Shown one piece after another: positions 43,129-53,232 of a stretch of DNA of 64,000 bases (positions are counted from its first letter, which is position 1; every line of letters starts with the position of its first letter). Source of the DNA: Williamsia sp. 1135 (GTDB taxonomy: Bacteria > Actinomycetota > Actinomycetes > Mycobacteriales > Mycobacteriaceae). The position numbers were made by a program, and so were the translations under genes. The notes beneath the pieces are model-generated. The model was not told where the DNA came from, did not search any database, and saw only the letters and a list, made by a program, of their open reading frames with translations. The stretch is taken from NCBI RefSeq assembly GCF_002095395.1, contig NZ_MJEI01000103.1, positions 1 through 64,000 of the forward strand, written 5' to 3'.

Positions 43129-43992
43129 ATGGCGGCACCTCGCCGCGGTGTCGGTCTGCCGACATTTGGCCCGCTGGCCGGTCCCGAGTCGGTGTCTGTC
43201 ATCGCCCGCACCGCCGATGACCTGGGCCTCGATGGCGTGTCTGCCACCGATCGGCTGCTGCTGCCCGCCGACCCGGGCCCCGTCGGAAGGCCCTGTCAGC
43301 TGCCGATGCCCGTCTGGGATCCGATCGAGGTGCTCACCTGGGCGGCGGCGCATACGACTCGCGTCCGGCTGGCGACGACGGTGGTCCACTCGCTGTTCCA
43401 GCCCCCCGTGGCGCTTGCTCGCCGGCTGGGGACCCTCGACCGGCTCAGCGGGGGCAGGTTACTGGTCGGCATCGGCCAGGGATGGACGCCGCACGAGCAC
43501 GAGGCCGCAGGGGTGGCGATGTCCTCGCGAGGAAGGCAATTCGCGGAGCACTTGGAGCTGATGCGCGAGTGCTGGCGGAAGGGGCCGGTGTCTCATGCCG
43601 GGGACTTCTACGATCTGAGATCGAGTTGGGTCGAACCCAAGCCCCTTCAAGATCCGCTCCCGGTGTTCATCGCCGCGGTGACCCCGGACGGGATTGCGCA
43701 GGCCGCTGCGATCGCAGACGGCTTCATGTTCCCGGTGACCTGCTGGGATGCCGCCCGCGATGCCGTCCGGGGATACCGTGAGGCGGGAGGGGGTGGCCCG
43801 ATCGCGCTGCGACTCAATCCGATTCGGGACCGGCGCGATCATGCTCTCGAGAGGTTCGCCGAGACGCTGTCCGCTGACTTTGGCCGGGCCCTGGCTCTCG
43901 GTGCCGACGAGGTGCACTGGGAGTTCAACCAGTCGACGATGACTTTGGCCGATCAGTGCAAGGCCATGGCACTCATCGCTGATATGGCCTAA
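43129..43992 (+). CDS. LLM-class (F420-type) oxidoreductase
   Basis: A 287-residue luciferase-like TIM-barrel protein: GVGLPTFGPLAGPE, DPIEVLTWAAAHTTRVRLATTV, GGRLLVGIGQGWTPHEHEAAGV. Members use F420 or FMN; the fold alone does not tell which. It lies upstream of the steroid-dehydrogenase-like gene, but the KstR box separates them, so coregulation is not assured. Confidence 0.85.
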   Translation: MAAPRRGVGLPTFGPLAGPESVSVIARTADDLGLDGVSATDRLLLPADPGPVGRPCQLPMPVWDPIEVLTWAAAHTTRVRLATTVVHSLFQPPVALARRLGTLDRLSGGRLLVGIGQGWTPHEHEAAGVAMSSRGRQFAEHLELMRECWRKGPVSHAGDFYDLRSSWVEPKPLQDPLPVFIAAVTPDGIAQAAAIADGFMFPVTCWDAARDAVRGYREAGGGGPIALRLNPIRDRRDHALERFAETLSADFGRALALGADEVHWEFNQSTMTLADQCKAMALIADMA

Positions 43993-43994
43993 AT

Positions 43995-44008
43995 TAGAAC
44001 GAGTTCTA
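43995..44008. promoter_or_regulatory. KstR-type operator
   Basis: TAGAACGAGTTCTA matches the published KstR pattern TnnAACnnGTTnnA at every fixed position and lies 28 bases ahead of the FAD dehydrogenase start. Confidence 0.8.
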
Positions 44009-44036
44009 GTTTGGGTCGCGTCAGTGAGGAAATGTG

Positions 44037-45488
44037 ATGAAGGCAGAGTTGCCCGAGGTAGTGCCCGTGTCGGACGTCGACGCGTGGACCGATGAGGTCG
44101 ACGTCCTGGTGGTCGGATGCGGTGTCTCCGGTGGCAGCGCCGCGGTGGCGGCTGCCTCCGACGGGGCCCGGGTGCTCGTCCTCGAACGCGCTGCCGTCGC
44201 CGGTGGCACCTCGTCGATGGCGGGCGGTCACTTCTACCTCGGTGGCGGGACCGCCGTGCAGAAGGCGACCGGCCATGACGATTCGCCCGAGGAGATGGAA
44301 AAGTATCTGCTCGCCGTCTCGCGCGACCCCGAACCCGAGAAGATCCACGCGTACAGCCACGGCAGCGTCGAGCACTTCGACTGGCTCGAGTCGCTGGGGT
44401 TCGAGTTCGAGCGCAGCTACTACCCCGAGAAGGCCGTCATCCAGCCCGAGACACAGGGCCTGATGTACACCGGGAACGAGAAGGTCTGGCCGTTCTGTGA
44501 ACAAGCCGTTCCCGCTCCCCGTGGGCACAAGGTCCCTGTGAAGGGCGACCTCGGCGGTGCCGGCCTGGTGGTCGATCTGCTCGTCAAACGCCTCGCGGAG
44601 TTGGGTACCGAGATCCGGTACGAGACAGGTGCCCGCAACCTGGTCGTCGATGAGTCCGGTGCCGTGGTCGGGGTGAAGTGGAAGCGACTGCAAGACACCG
44701 GCTTCATCAAGGCGAAGTCCGTGATCATCGCGGCGGGCGGCTTCGTGATGAACGAATCGATGGTCGCCGAGTTCGTTCCGCAGATGTCCGAGAAGCCGTA
44801 CACGCTGGGCAGTACGTACGACGACGGGCTCGGTATCCGCCTCGGCGCATCCGTTGGCGCCGCACTCAAACACATGGACCAGCCCTTCGTCACGGCCCCC
44901 ATCTATCCTCCGTCGATCCTGCTGACCGGCATTGCCGTCAACAAGGACGGGAACAGATTCGTCAACGAGGATTCGTATCATTCACGGACCTCGGCGTTCG
45001 TCATGGAGCAACCAGACGCCATCGCCTATCTGATCGTCGACGAGGAGCACCTGGAGCGACCGGAGTTCCCTCTCGCACCGCTCATCGACGGCTGGGAGAC
45101 AGTCGCAGAGATGGAGTCGGCACTGGGGATTCCGACGGGGAACCTGGCGAAGTCGCTCGACCGCTACAACGACAACGCCGCCCGGGGCGAGGATCCCGAC
45201 TTCAACAAGCGGCCGGAATGGCTTGCGCCGCAGAACAGCGGCCCGTGGGGTGCGTTCGACCTCTCGCTGGGCAAGGCCATGTACGCGGGTTTCACGATGG
45301 GCGGCGTGGCGACGTCGGTCGACGGTGAGGTCCTCACGGAGGCAAGAGACGTGGTGCCGGGTCTCTACGCGGCGGGTGCCGGGGCTGCGAACATCGCCCA
45401 GGACGGTAAGGGTTACGCGAGCGGCACCCAGCTGGGTGAGGGGTCGTTCTTCGGTCGGCGGGCGGGACGCCACGCGGCGGCACGCTGA
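44037..45488 (+). CDS. FAD-dependent 3-ketosteroid dehydrogenase-like protein
   Basis: A 483-residue flavoprotein of the fumarate reductase/3-ketosteroid dehydrogenase superfamily: dinucleotide motif VVGCGVSGGSAAVAAA, GGTSSMAGGHFYLGGG, and the C-terminal GGVATSVDGEVL...GLYAAGAGAANIAQDGKGYASGTQLGEG. It likely oxidises a steroid or related ring ketone; exact position unknown. ATG 44037 has GAGGAA upstream. A perfect KstR operator precedes it, tying it to cholesterol/sterol breakdown. Confidence 0.85.
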   Translation: MKAELPEVVPVSDVDAWTDEVDVLVVGCGVSGGSAAVAAASDGARVLVLERAAVAGGTSSMAGGHFYLGGGTAVQKATGHDDSPEEMEKYLLAVSRDPEPEKIHAYSHGSVEHFDWLESLGFEFERSYYPEKAVIQPETQGLMYTGNEKVWPFCEQAVPAPRGHKVPVKGDLGGAGLVVDLLVKRLAELGTEIRYETGARNLVVDESGAVVGVKWKRLQDTGFIKAKSVIIAAGGFVMNESMVAEFVPQMSEKPYTLGSTYDDGLGIRLGASVGAALKHMDQPFVTAPIYPPSILLTGIAVNKDGNRFVNEDSYHSRTSAFVMEQPDAIAYLIVDEEHLERPEFPLAPLIDGWETVAEMESALGIPTGNLAKSLDRYNDNAARGEDPDFNKRPEWLAPQNSGPWGAFDLSLGKAMYAGFTMGGVATSVDGEVLTEARDVVPGLYAAGAGAANIAQDGKGYASGTQLGEGSFFGRRAGRHAAAR

Positions 45489-50255: not shown

Positions 50256-50288
50256 TGATGTGGCGCACGCGTGTCGTGCGCCACATCA
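50256..50288 (+). other. Hairpin in the pnt leader
   Basis: A perfect 14-bp stem (TGATGTGGCGCACG and complement) with a 5-base loop, 70 bases before the pntAA start and 130 bases past rskA. It could terminate the sigK operon or act in the pnt leader. The rest of 50127-50357 shows nothing I can name. Confidence 0.6.
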
Positions 50289-50357
50289 GGCTATTTAGGG
50301 GTGGGCACCAGAGCGCACGCTCGGTTGCCCACCCATACCCATGACGAGGGAGCTTGT

Positions 50358-51446
50358 ATGAGTGTGGGTGTCGTGCGTGAAACGACAGCTGGGGAGAACC
50401 GGGTGGCGTTGGTGCCGAAGGTGGTCGCGACGCTGGTGAACAAGGGCGTACCGGTTGTTGTGGAGTCGGGCGCGGGTGAGGCTGCGTTGATCCCTGATCA
50501 GTTGTATGTCGATGCTGGTGCGTCGATTGGTGATGCGTGGTCGGCTGATGTGGTGGTGAAGGTCGATGCACCCACCGATGCCGAGATCGGGAAGCTGTCG
50601 TCGGGTTCGTCGTTGATCGGGTTCTTGGCGCCGCGTAATCAGGAGAATCAGATCGGCGCTTTGAAGGCGGCCGGGGTGCAGGCGTTCGCGGTGGAGGCGA
50701 TCCCGCGTATTTCTCGTGCGCAGTCGATGGATGCGTTGTCCTCGCAGGGCAACGTCTCGGGCTACAAGGCCGTGATCTTGGCGGCGGAGAAGTCGACCCG
50801 CTTTTTCCCGATGCTCACCACGGCCGCCGGAACGGTCAAGCCGGCGACGGTGCTGGTCCTCGGAGTCGGCGTCGCGGGTTTGCAGGCGTTGGCCACAGCC
50901 AAGCGTCTGGGTGCGCGCACCACTGGTTATGACGTGCGGCCGGAGGTGGCCGAGCAGGTCAAGTCGGTGGGCGGCCAGTGGCTCGATCTCGGTATCGACG
51001 CGGCCGGTGAAGGTGGCTATGCCCGCGAGTTGACCGAGGAAGAGCGGGCGAAGCAGCAGCAGGCTCTCGAGGACGCGATCAAGAGCTTTGATGTGGTGAT
51101 CACGACGGCGTTGGTGCCCGGTCGTCCGGCGCCGCGGCTGGTGACCGCCGCCGCGGTCGACGGTATGAAGCCCGGCAGTGTCGTGGTGGATCTGGCCGGT
51201 GAGACCGGCGGCAACTGTGAGCTGACCGAGCCCGGTGAGAATGTGATCAAGCATGACGTGCTGATCTGCAGCCCGCTCAATCTGCCCGCGGGGATGCCTG
51301 AGCATGCCAGCGAGTTGTACGCGAAGAACATTTTGGCGTTGATCGAACTCGCGCTCGATGACGACGGCAATTTCGCGCCGGACTTTTCTGACGAGGTATT
51401 GGCCGCGGCGTGTGTGACGCGCGAAACCGAGAGGGCAGGTGCCTAA
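50358..51446 (+). CDS. pntAA: NAD(P) transhydrogenase subunit alpha part 1
   Basis: A 362-residue NAD(H)-binding subunit (SVGVVRETTAGENRVALVP, VLGVGVAGLQALATAKRLGA). The catalytic loop with KPGSVVVDLAGETGGN is present. With PntAB and PntB it couples the proton gradient to NADPH formation. ATG 50358 has GAGGGAG upstream. Leucine is often coded by TTG, unlike neighbouring genes. Confidence 0.93.
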   Translation: MSVGVVRETTAGENRVALVPKVVATLVNKGVPVVVESGAGEAALIPDQLYVDAGASIGDAWSADVVVKVDAPTDAEIGKLSSGSSLIGFLAPRNQENQIGALKAAGVQAFAVEAIPRISRAQSMDALSSQGNVSGYKAVILAAEKSTRFFPMLTTAAGTVKPATVLVLGVGVAGLQALATAKRLGARTTGYDVRPEVAEQVKSVGGQWLDLGIDAAGEGGYARELTEEERAKQQQALEDAIKSFDVVITTALVPGRPAPRLVTAAAVDGMKPGSVVVDLAGETGGNCELTEPGENVIKHDVLICSPLNLPAGMPEHASELYAKNILALIELALDDDGNFAPDFSDEVLAAACVTRETERAGA

Positions 51447-51448
51447 AG

Positions 51449-51793
51449 ATGTATACGGGTTTACTCGCGAATATCGCGATTTTGGTGTTGGCGGGTTTTG
51501 TCGGCTTCGCGGTCATTTCCAAGGTGCCCAACACCTTGCATACGCCGTTGATGTCGGGGACGAACGCCATCCACGGCATCGTGGTGCTGGGTGCGCTGTT
51601 GGTGCTGGGCCGGTTGCCTGATGATGCGCCGTGGGGTGTGCGGATCATCGCGTTCGTGGCGTTGATCTTCGGAACCCTGAATGTGGTGGGTGGGTTCTTG
51701 GTCACCGACCGGATGTTGGGCATGTTCAAGAGCAAGAAGGCCCCTGTGGCTGCTGCTGATTCCGCTGACCCGAAAGCGCAGGCCGGCAAGTGA
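51449..51793 (+). CDS. pntAB: NAD(P) transhydrogenase subunit alpha part 2
   Basis: A 114-residue membrane subunit with three helices (LANIAILVLAGFVGFAVISKVP, IHGIVVLGALLVLG, IIAFVALIFGTLNVVGGFLVTDRML). It forms the proton channel with PntB. Its start is two bases past pntAA. Confidence 0.92.
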   Translation: MYTGLLANIAILVLAGFVGFAVISKVPNTLHTPLMSGTNAIHGIVVLGALLVLGRLPDDAPWGVRIIAFVALIFGTLNVVGGFLVTDRMLGMFKSKKAPVAAADSADPKAQAGK

Positions 51794-53232
51794 ACAACTT
51801 GGTCAATATTCTTTATATTGTTGCGTTTTCGATGTTCATCCTCGGTTTGTCGGGGTTGACCGGACCGAAGACCGCGGTGCGCGGTAACTGGATCGCCGCG
51901 ACCGGTATGGGTATCGCGGTGATCGCGACGTTGATCGAGATCCGCGACACCTACGCCATCAACTGGATCCTGATCGTCGCTGGTTTGGCGATCGGTGTGA
52001 TCTTGGGTGTGCCGCCGGCCAAGCGGACGAAGATGACGGCGATGCCGCAGTTGGTGGCGTTGTTCAATGGTGTCGGCGGCGGCACGGTGGCGTTGATCGC
52101 GTGGTCGGAGTTCATCGAGACCGCAGGTTTCTCGGAGTTCAAGCACGGTGAATCCCCGACCGTTCACATCGTGATCGGGTCGCTGTTCGCGGCGATCATC
52201 GGTTCGGTGTCGTTCTGGGGGTCGCTGATCGCGTTCCTGAAGCTGCAGGAGTTGCTGAACAAGAACGTCGAGAAGGCGTTCGTGAAGAACGCGAAGATCT
52301 TCCAGGTCGCCAACATCGTGCTGCTGATCATCGCGCTCGCGGCGTGTGTGTTCATCGGCATCAACGCCACCCCGGGCGAGGGGTCGTCGCAGTGGTGGAT
52401 CGTGCTGGTGCTCGTCGCTGCCGCGATCATGGGGTTGTTCGTGGTGCTGCCGATCGGCGGCGCCGACATGCCGGTGGTCATCTCGCTGCTGAACGCGTTG
52501 ACCGGTTTGTCGGCTGCGGCTGCGGGTTTGGCGCTCAACAACACCGCGATGATCGTGGCCGGCATGATCGTCGGTGCGTCGGGCAGCATTCTGACCAACC
52601 TGATGGCCACAGCGATGAACCGGTCCATCCCGGCGATCGTGTTCGGGTCGTTCGGTGGCGGCGGTGGGGCTGCTGCGGCCGGTCCGGCCGGCGAGCAGGG
52701 CACCGTCAAGGCCACCAGCGCTGCCGATGCGGCGATCCAGATGGCGTACGCCTCCCAGGTCATCGTGGTTCCCGGGTATGGGCTCGCGGTGGCGCAGGCT
52801 CAGCACGCGGTGAAGGACATGGCGAGCATTCTGGAGGAGAAGGGCGTGGAGGTGAAGTACGCCATTCACCCCGTTGCCGGCCGGATGCCCGGACACATGA
52901 ATGTGCTTCTCGCCGAAGCTGATGTCGAGTACGACGCGATGAAGGAGATGGATGACATCAACGGGGAGTTCTCCCGCACCGATGTCACCCTGGTCATCGG
53001 GGCCAACGACGTCACCAACCCCGCCGCCCGCAACGATCCCAGCAGCCCGATTCATGGGATGCCGATCTTGAACGTCGACCAGTCCCGCTCGGTCATCGTC
53101 CTCAAACGCGGTATGGCCTCGGGCTACGCCGGCATCGACAACCCGCTGTTCACCGCTCCGGGCACCTCGATGCTCTTCGGCGACGCCAAGAAATCCGTCG
53201 GCCTGGTCATCGAAGAACTCAAAGCGCTGTAA
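51790..53232 (+). CDS. pntB: NAD(P) transhydrogenase subunit beta
   Basis: A 480-residue subunit: eight or nine membrane helices and a C-terminal NADP-binding domain (VIVVPGYGLAVAQAQHAVKDMA, HPVAGRMPGHMNVLLAEADVEYD, VIGANDVTNPAARNDPSSPIHGMP). GTG overlaps the pntAB stop (GTGA), so translation is coupled. Confidence 0.94.
   Translation: MNNLVNILYIVAFSMFILGLSGLTGPKTAVRGNWIAATGMGIAVIATLIEIRDTYAINWILIVAGLAIGVILGVPPAKRTKMTAMPQLVALFNGVGGGTVALIAWSEFIETAGFSEFKHGESPTVHIVIGSLFAAIIGSVSFWGSLIAFLKLQELLNKNVEKAFVKNAKIFQVANIVLLIIALAACVFIGINATPGEGSSQWWIVLVLVAAAIMGLFVVLPIGGADMPVVISLLNALTGLSAAAAGLALNNTAMIVAGMIVGASGSILTNLMATAMNRSIPAIVFGSFGGGGGAAAAGPAGEQGTVKATSAADAAIQMAYASQVIVVPGYGLAVAQAQHAVKDMASILEEKGVEVKYAIHPVAGRMPGHMNVLLAEADVEYDAMKEMDDINGEFSRTDVTLVIGANDVTNPAARNDPSSPIHGMPILNVDQSRSVIVLKRGMASGYAGIDNPLFTAPGTSMLFGDAKKSVGLVIEELKAL

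Follow-up and report, generated by a model that had tools for sequence, protein, structure and literature searches.

The window, by which we mean the whole 64,000-nucleotide stretch that was analysed, is located in contig C91 of the 5.98 Mb Williamsia genome. The region studied here contains a gene for an FAD-dependent oxidoreductase (P0001) preceded by a perfect palindrome of the KstR operator type. Its features are as follows.

43995..44008, + strand: KstR operator TAGAACGAGTTCTA, a perfect 6+6 palindrome, read from the sequence and kept before orthologues
44007..44012, + strand: TAGTTT, a weak candidate for a -10 element that shares bases with the right arm of the box
44026..44031, + strand: candidate ribosome-binding site GAGGAA, predicted from the sequence
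44037..45488, + strand: gene of P0001, 483 amino acids, FAD-dependent oxidoreductase, delta4-(5alpha)-3-ketosteroid dehydrogenase-like
44976..44978, + strand: codon of Tyr314 (Tyr319 of ro05698 in the alignment), invariant in 24 clade A sequences
45414..45416, + strand: codon of Tyr460 (Tyr466 of ro05698 in the alignment), invariant in 24 clade A sequences
45420..45422, + strand: codon of Ser462 (Ser468 of ro05698 in the alignment), invariant in 24 clade A sequences

Clade A denotes the homologues with at least 60% identity, a line chosen after the gap between 62% and 47% had been seen. An LLM-class oxidoreductase gene (43129-43992, +) ends 2 nt before the box and was considered as an operon partner of the FAD gene, but it was rejected, its family being found in six of the best 80 of 261 loci (L042-L044 and L046-L048), all from close Williamsia relatives. 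One of these, L046 (NZ_JNYV01000016.1), has its locus of Williamsia type under the title Kitasatospora arboriphila NRRL B-24581, which is probably wrong. About 5 kb downstream of the FAD gene there are NAD(P) transhydrogenase-like genes (window 50271-53232), and in Gordonia hydrophobica a transhydrogenase-like gene also stands 3' of the FAD gene (L057:4726-6258), all of them named from their translations.

The KstR box and the regulon of the Williamsia genome

The original prediction had described a KstR box with all fixed consensus positions, 28 bases before the gene, and this description was confirmed: the box is separated by 28 nt from the ATG at 44037, or by 25 nt from an in-frame GTG at 44034. 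It is the single match in the window to the loose consensus TnnAACnnGTTnnA. Taken alone, this match is weak and not significant evidence, with 0.19 matches expected per 64 kb window, at least one match in 19 of 100 shuffled sequences, and 51 places in the whole genome against 27 with the reversed control. These are the numbers that speak for a chance palindrome in front of a gene which is not controlled by KstR. Against it stands the strict palindrome TAGAACnnGTTCTA: the window site fits all 12 of its fixed bases with 0 mismatches, and the genome has 10 such places, compared to 0 for the reversed control (all but the one on C105 were examined further). Two further results described below also argue against chance, namely that other genera have kept the box close to where the gene or its operon begins, and that the FAD gene co-occurs with KstR; we regard chance as a very improbable explanation. 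In a scan of the + strand with a symmetrical position weight matrix made from 47 M. smegmatis and M. tuberculosis sites (Kendall 2007, Table 3) the box ranked first in the window with 15.5 bits, the next unrelated position scoring 11.7; the median score of the published sites is 15.6 bits.

The earlier reading had been made dependent on the presence of KstR in the genome. A kstR gene was found at C62:49541-50092; with the KstR model, whose cut-off is 280, its product scores 336.8 bits. The space between kstR and a divergent gene for a 741-aa, fadE34-like acyl-CoA dehydrogenase contains a perfect box, the same arrangement of kstR, fadE34 and box as described for mycobacteria (Kendall 2007). Boxes with one or two mismatches to the strict palindrome were also found before kstD, fadD8 and an hsaD-like gene. 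When 20 box-flanking ORFs, picked from the boxes of the genome, were scored against curated models, the cut-off was exceeded by kstR and by four others: a 3-oxosteroid 1-dehydrogenase (966.6 bits, cut-off 788), fadD8 (1055.9 bits, cut-off 875), an F420 enzyme of the Rv3520c type (476.4 bits, cut-off 335) and an SDR oxidoreductase (464.9 bits, cut-off 334). The HsaA-like and HsaD-like flanking proteins scored below their cut-offs, and six of the 20 ORFs had no match at E 1e-30.

Two other sites of the genome are worth recording. A perfect box (C13:5854-5867) precedes the gene of another F420 LLM-class oxidoreductase, which is TIGR03619-like and just under the cut-off (162 bits against 166.9); the product of the window gene 43129-43992 belongs to the same family (163.9 bits). 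At C62:2197-2239 two perfect boxes, whose starts are 29 nt apart, lie between divergent genes, one of them coding for an epimerase-like protein with similarity below the cut-offs to HpnA and SdmB.

Conservation of the box and spread of the gene

The named-genome scan used the best 80 of 261 loci, the closest relative among them being a W. soli record with 99% identity for P0001. In 50 of these loci the 760 nt that precede the first aligned residue contain a perfect box, and in 71 a box with at most two mismatches. In the loci named Williamsia, Gordonia, Jongsikchunia and Nocardioides the box is 35-85 nt before the gene. Mycobacterial loci are arranged differently: in 42 of the best 80 of 261 loci a Glyoxalase_4 (VOC) gene, which is not beside the Williamsia FAD gene, lies 5' of the FAD gene, and 38 of these 42 have a box with at most two mismatches (20 perfect) that precedes the FAD gene by 521-713 nt and lies approximately at or just before the start of the VOC gene. 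Forty of the 42 are titled Mycobacterium, Mycolicibacterium, Mycolicibacter or Mycobacteriaceae, the other two being MAGs titled 'Actinomycetes bacterium'.

For a wider comparison 158 homologous sequences were reduced, by leaving out 15 with identical protein, to 143 distinct ones (109 of clade A and 34 others), which include some truncated copies of one gene. The box is perfect in 68 of the 109 clade A sequences, has at most one mismatch in 74 and at most two in 98, whereas the reversed motif, at up to two mismatches, was found in four of the 109. No box was found before L071, L074, L079, L088, L093, L094, L102, L105, L108, L137 and L197, that is, in 11 of the 109; L093 has 281 nt of upstream sequence only. 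Among the more distant homologues no KstR box with two or fewer mismatches was found before any of the 33 that have upstream sequence, the 34th, L168, lying at a contig end and being excluded from the count.

The position of the box relative to possible promoter elements was compared in the same orthologues. Among the 42 whose box precedes the gene by under 100 nt, a TAnnnT hexamer starts 2 nt inside the end of the box in 25, which is weak evidence, the TA being supplied by the box so that one further base is needed. In 21 of the 42 a TAnnnT follows the box at 9-10 nt, a spacing at which the window has none, and in 35 of the 56 with a farther box it follows at 21 nt. At the kstR promoter the box is reported to lie upstream of the -10 region and to overlap it partly (Kendall 2007). 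These fixed distances suggest, from position, that the box lies in or against the promoter, which a bound repressor would cover.

Co-occurrence with KstR was counted across genomes. A clade A homologue (at least 62% identity, the next best being 47%) was found in 33 of 296 genomes drawn across the class, and all 33 also have a KstR scoring 227 bits or more, as do 38 of the 296 genomes in total. It must be noted that the 227-bit threshold was picked after the scores had been seen, the curated cut-off being 280. At 280 bits KstR is present in 27 of the 296 genomes and clade A in 23 of these 27, the remaining 10 clade A genomes having KstR-like proteins at 227-279 bits. KstR without the FAD gene was seen in five of the 38 genomes (G035, G100, G251, G272 and G299), of which G035, G100 and G299 carry proteins of the ro05698 clade in place of clade A. 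The sampled genomes are related and hence not independent, and the co-occurrence is given as counts, with no probability attached; the Fisher value for the box comparison is likewise to be taken as an indication only.

The perfect box, its retention in other genera, the presence of KstR and the co-occurrence in the 296 genomes all uphold the earlier view of the gene as a member of the sterol regulon. Judged from this evidence, the gene at 44037-45488 is very probably under KstR control.

Protein family and catalytic residues

P0001 is a single polypeptide of 483 amino acids, close to the 490 or so expected of a delta4-(5alpha)-3-ketosteroid dehydrogenase, with an FAD_binding_2/succinate dehydrogenase-like fold (Pfam FAD_binding_2, PF00890, 162.8 bits). 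It belongs to NCBIfam NF005508 (871 bits, cut-off 537), as do all 24 members of the clade A alignment (A1); the family is named only 'FAD-binding protein'. The best PDB match is 4AT0, the structure of ro05698 of Rhodococcus jostii RHA1 (E 1.7e-95, query residues 12-481), to which P0001 is 40.7% identical over nearly its full length. Further matches are flavocytochrome c fumarate reductases (about 1e-35), followed by delta1-KstD structures (about 1e-25). Residues Tyr319, Tyr466 and Ser468 are reportedly essential in ro05698, where Ser468 is said to be the general base, and they correspond to Y314, Y460 and S462 in P0001. The Tyr-Tyr-Ser combination is found in 142 of the 143 distinct homologues, L162 having Tyr-Tyr-Thr. 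The triad, being common to the distant homologues too, does not separate the clades; it supports a type of chemistry rather than an exact substrate. On these grounds P0001 quite probably has chemistry of the delta4-(5alpha) type. An identity of 41% to ro05698 is, judged from sequence, not enough to fix its substrate.

The top Foldseek match of the AlphaFold model is also 4AT0 (rmsd 11.1, TM 0.64). With a mean pLDDT of 72.9 the model is only moderate, and the superposition is poor, so this match adds little; as residues 455-463, which include Tyr460 and Ser462, have a pLDDT under 50, the active-site geometry was not taken from the model.

The original prediction had called the protein only distantly like known 3-ketosteroid dehydrogenases. 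This holds for the delta1-dehydrogenases (KstD), to which P0001 is about 25% identical in the Foldseek alignments, but not for the delta4-(5alpha) enzyme ro05698, with its 41% identity and its shared triad. As to the suggestion that the enzyme may serve a less-known step, the nearly end-to-end match to ro05698 and the preserved triad make a known step likely, although more than one substrate may come into question in the cell, as that prediction had implied.

A KstD isoenzyme could be imagined from the shared FAD_binding_2 domain and from weak similarity to the structures 4C3X and 8JOJ. P0001, in contrast, scores far too low with the KstD models (NF005882, 132 bits against a cut-off of 788; NF009478, 151 against 789; NF009479, 96 against 793), whereas the genome's own KstD on C62 scores 967 with NF005882. 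That protein fell outside all homologues in our tree, on a very long branch. A delta1-dehydrogenase identity was rejected because of the model scores far below the cut-offs, and we consider it hardly credible.

It is somewhat less improbable, though still a poor candidate, that P0001 works mainly as a reductase, i.e. as a delta4-3-ketosteroid 5alpha-reductase or an enone reductase using the flavin hydride, since its fold family includes flavocytochrome c fumarate reductase and urocanate reductase. No haem domain is present, however, among the Pfam matches of the 483 amino acids, and the GANRLGGN segment of flavocytochrome c3 is replaced in P0001 by GKGYASGTQ, with the Tyr and Ser of the dehydrogenases. 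A 5beta-delta4-ketosteroid dehydrogenase, which would belong to the Old Yellow Enzyme family (PMC8044976), was ruled out by the Pfam matches: the six families found at E 0.001 are all of the FAD/NAD(P)-Rossmann type, and no Old Yellow Enzyme fold was among them.

A phylogeny against KstD1-3 and delta4-dehydrogenases had been proposed with the original prediction; our tree includes one KstD and ro05698, the only characterised member compared. The tree contained 65 sequences (29 of clade A, 34 other homologues, 4AT0 and the genome's own KstD). The 29 clade A sequences form one side of a branch with a support of 100/97. ro05698 is in a separate clade (100/99), which does not include P0001, together with 21 sequences that are 67-78% identical to it, and 13 further distant sequences are in neither clade. 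The tree program gave a long-branch warning, above all for the KstD outgroup, and the deep order is unsure.

The NCBIfam assignments of selected sequences agree with the split of the tree. NF005512 is passed by four members of the ro05698 clade (L165, L166, L039 and L173), and not by L188, L184 or P0001. Among the seven proteins scanned (six distant homologues and P0001), NF005508 is passed by P0001 only and NF005510 by all seven. ro05698 shares the FAD fold, the triad and near full-length similarity with P0001, and differs by its own clade and by the NF005512 assignment of four clade members. A further difference is that none of the ro05698-clade genes with upstream sequence has a KstR box with up to two mismatches. 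Of nine genomes from the genus of the window, three contain both clades; the window genome has only clade A. If the box is taken as a guide, it is regulation that separates these look-alike clades, clade A being under KstR and the others not.

Predicted role and relation to known systems

We consider it likely that KstR control and delta4-(5alpha)-type chemistry hold together for this gene. KstR would block transcription by binding to the promoter palindrome (43995-44008), and a sterol-derived ligand such as a 3-oxo-4-ene sterol acid would lift the block. In the enzyme, with the roles transferred from ro05698, Tyr460 would hold the C3 oxygen, Ser462, aided by Tyr314, would take the 4beta proton and the flavin the 5alpha hydride, so that the C4-C5 bond is oxidised and a delta4-3-keto steroid is formed. 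The proposed role is to bring ring-A-saturated 3-ketosteroids to the ordinary delta4-3-keto form and thereby into the 9,10-seco pathway. Binding, induction, reaction and substrate are all deduced from the box, the kstR gene, the conservation, the kinship and the triad.

The need for a delta4 enzyme under KstR is not obvious, because cholesterol is a delta5 3-ol and requires none: its oxidation and isomerisation give the delta4-3-ketone directly. As cholesterol skips the delta4 step, the likely substrates are derivatives of 5alpha-stanols or over-reduced intermediates. The VOC gene next to the FAD gene in mycobacteria could also mean that the latter serves another step of the pathway. Also weighing against the proposed reading are the 11 of 109 clade A sequences with no box, the five of 38 KstR-bearing genomes in which the gene is absent, and the position of P0001 outside the ro05698 clade.

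It is also conceivable, though rather unlikely, that an enzyme of the same fold and chemistry serves the KstR regulon with another substrate, such as a sterol intermediate that is bound to CoA or still bears a side chain, or a ketone in ring C/D. The separation of clade A from the ro05698 clade by a long branch would fit this, as would the genomes holding both clades (the three of nine mentioned above, and others class-wide) and the position of the FAD gene behind a VOC gene in the 42 of 80 loci. On the other hand, all three residues reported as catalytic for delta4-(5alpha) activity are kept, and a comparable Nocardioides gene has been classed as kst4D by those who described it (PMC7593942).

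Enzymes of the delta4 type, and precedents for KstR control of such genes, are already in print. ro05698 (4AT0/4AT2), KstD4 of R. erythropolis SQ1 and TesI of Comamonas are listed together in PMC8044976. KR76_24505 of Nocardioides simplex VKM Ac-2033D is reported as a kst4D orthologue of the KstR regulon that is transcribed alone and is induced by both cholesterol and lithocholate, and a 3-oxo-4-ene sterol acid is given as the ligand releasing KstR (PMC7593942). Our comparison included 12 Nocardioides-type clade A sequences (two named Nocardioides, one Nocardioidaceae MAG and nine of family f24), and in 11 of them a box with at most two mismatches precedes the first aligned residue by 25-75 nt; none was found before L197 of this group, nor before L188 and L191, two distant sequences of f24. 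From the box, we infer that KR76_24505 is of clade A rather than ro05698-like.

Another published lead comes from mycobacteria, where many clade A genes have a TetR or trypsin-like gene and the VOC gene on one side and a BacA-type ABC transporter gene on the other. We take the order Rv1815-Rv1819c of M. tuberculosis to be the same. An additional KstR motif is listed at MSMEG_3658, among motifs that overlap or lie inside coding regions (Kendall 2007), and MSMEG_3656 is an ABC transporter (PMC11578590). As the mycobacterial FAD gene lies between VOC and transporter genes, MSMEG_3658 and MSMEG_3657 are probably the VOC and FAD genes of M. smegmatis, an assignment that depends on gene order. Rv1817 is named, together with ro05698, as a delta4(5alpha)-KSTD with experimentally confirmed function (PMC6593523). 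The connection of clade A with Rv1817 and the MSMEG_3658 operon is drawn from the gene order in mycobacteria, with the identities deduced from it, and the VOC neighbour is a mycobacterial, not a Williamsia, feature. None of MSMEG_3656-3658 is named in the main text of a study of M. smegmatis on cholesterol (PMC4881515), and no mention of MSMEG_3657 was found in the open-licence papers searched; it may well be in print elsewhere.

A more speculative extension, which we put forward tentatively, is that NF005508 is a dedicated actinobacterial delta4-dehydrogenase of the sterol regulon acting on stanol-derived 3-ketones, perhaps with the side chain or CoA attached, and with a mycobacterial VOC isomerase or epimerase beside it. 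Such an enzyme could be a feed-forward gate for the entry of stanols: since a 3-oxo-4-ene sterol acid releases KstR, it would make the regulon's own inducer, and substrates that otherwise do not induce would yield an inducer of the KstR regulon. If P0001 is active on stanols, the cholesterol switch would also take in saturated sterols, which would have a bearing on strains making steroid drugs from phytosterols. In any case a testable function can be put to a widespread branch, NF005508, with close relatives (E 1e-120 or better) in 379 of 395 genomes of one genus, that of G011, taken to be Mycobacterium.

In slow-growing mycobacteria including L055, L064 and L096 the left arm and the core of the site before the VOC-FAD operon are intact and its right end is changed, giving TAGAACGTGTTCAT/CAC, and a TetR gene adjoins this altered site; regulation of the operon may have shifted there. 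Two genomes of 4.4-4.5 Mb (G548 and G600) had no box with three or fewer mismatches in the 6.5 kb examined; their gene order is trypsin-like gene, VOC, FAD gene and ABC transporter, with no TetR between, which does not seem to fit M. tuberculosis, and our reading does not extend to M. tuberculosis itself. The VOC protein is about 166 amino acids long (e.g. L096:2492-2992). Q10, Q69, H94, H95 and E146 are among its residues conserved in at least 95% of the 42 sequences, a pattern that resembles methylmalonyl-CoA epimerase.
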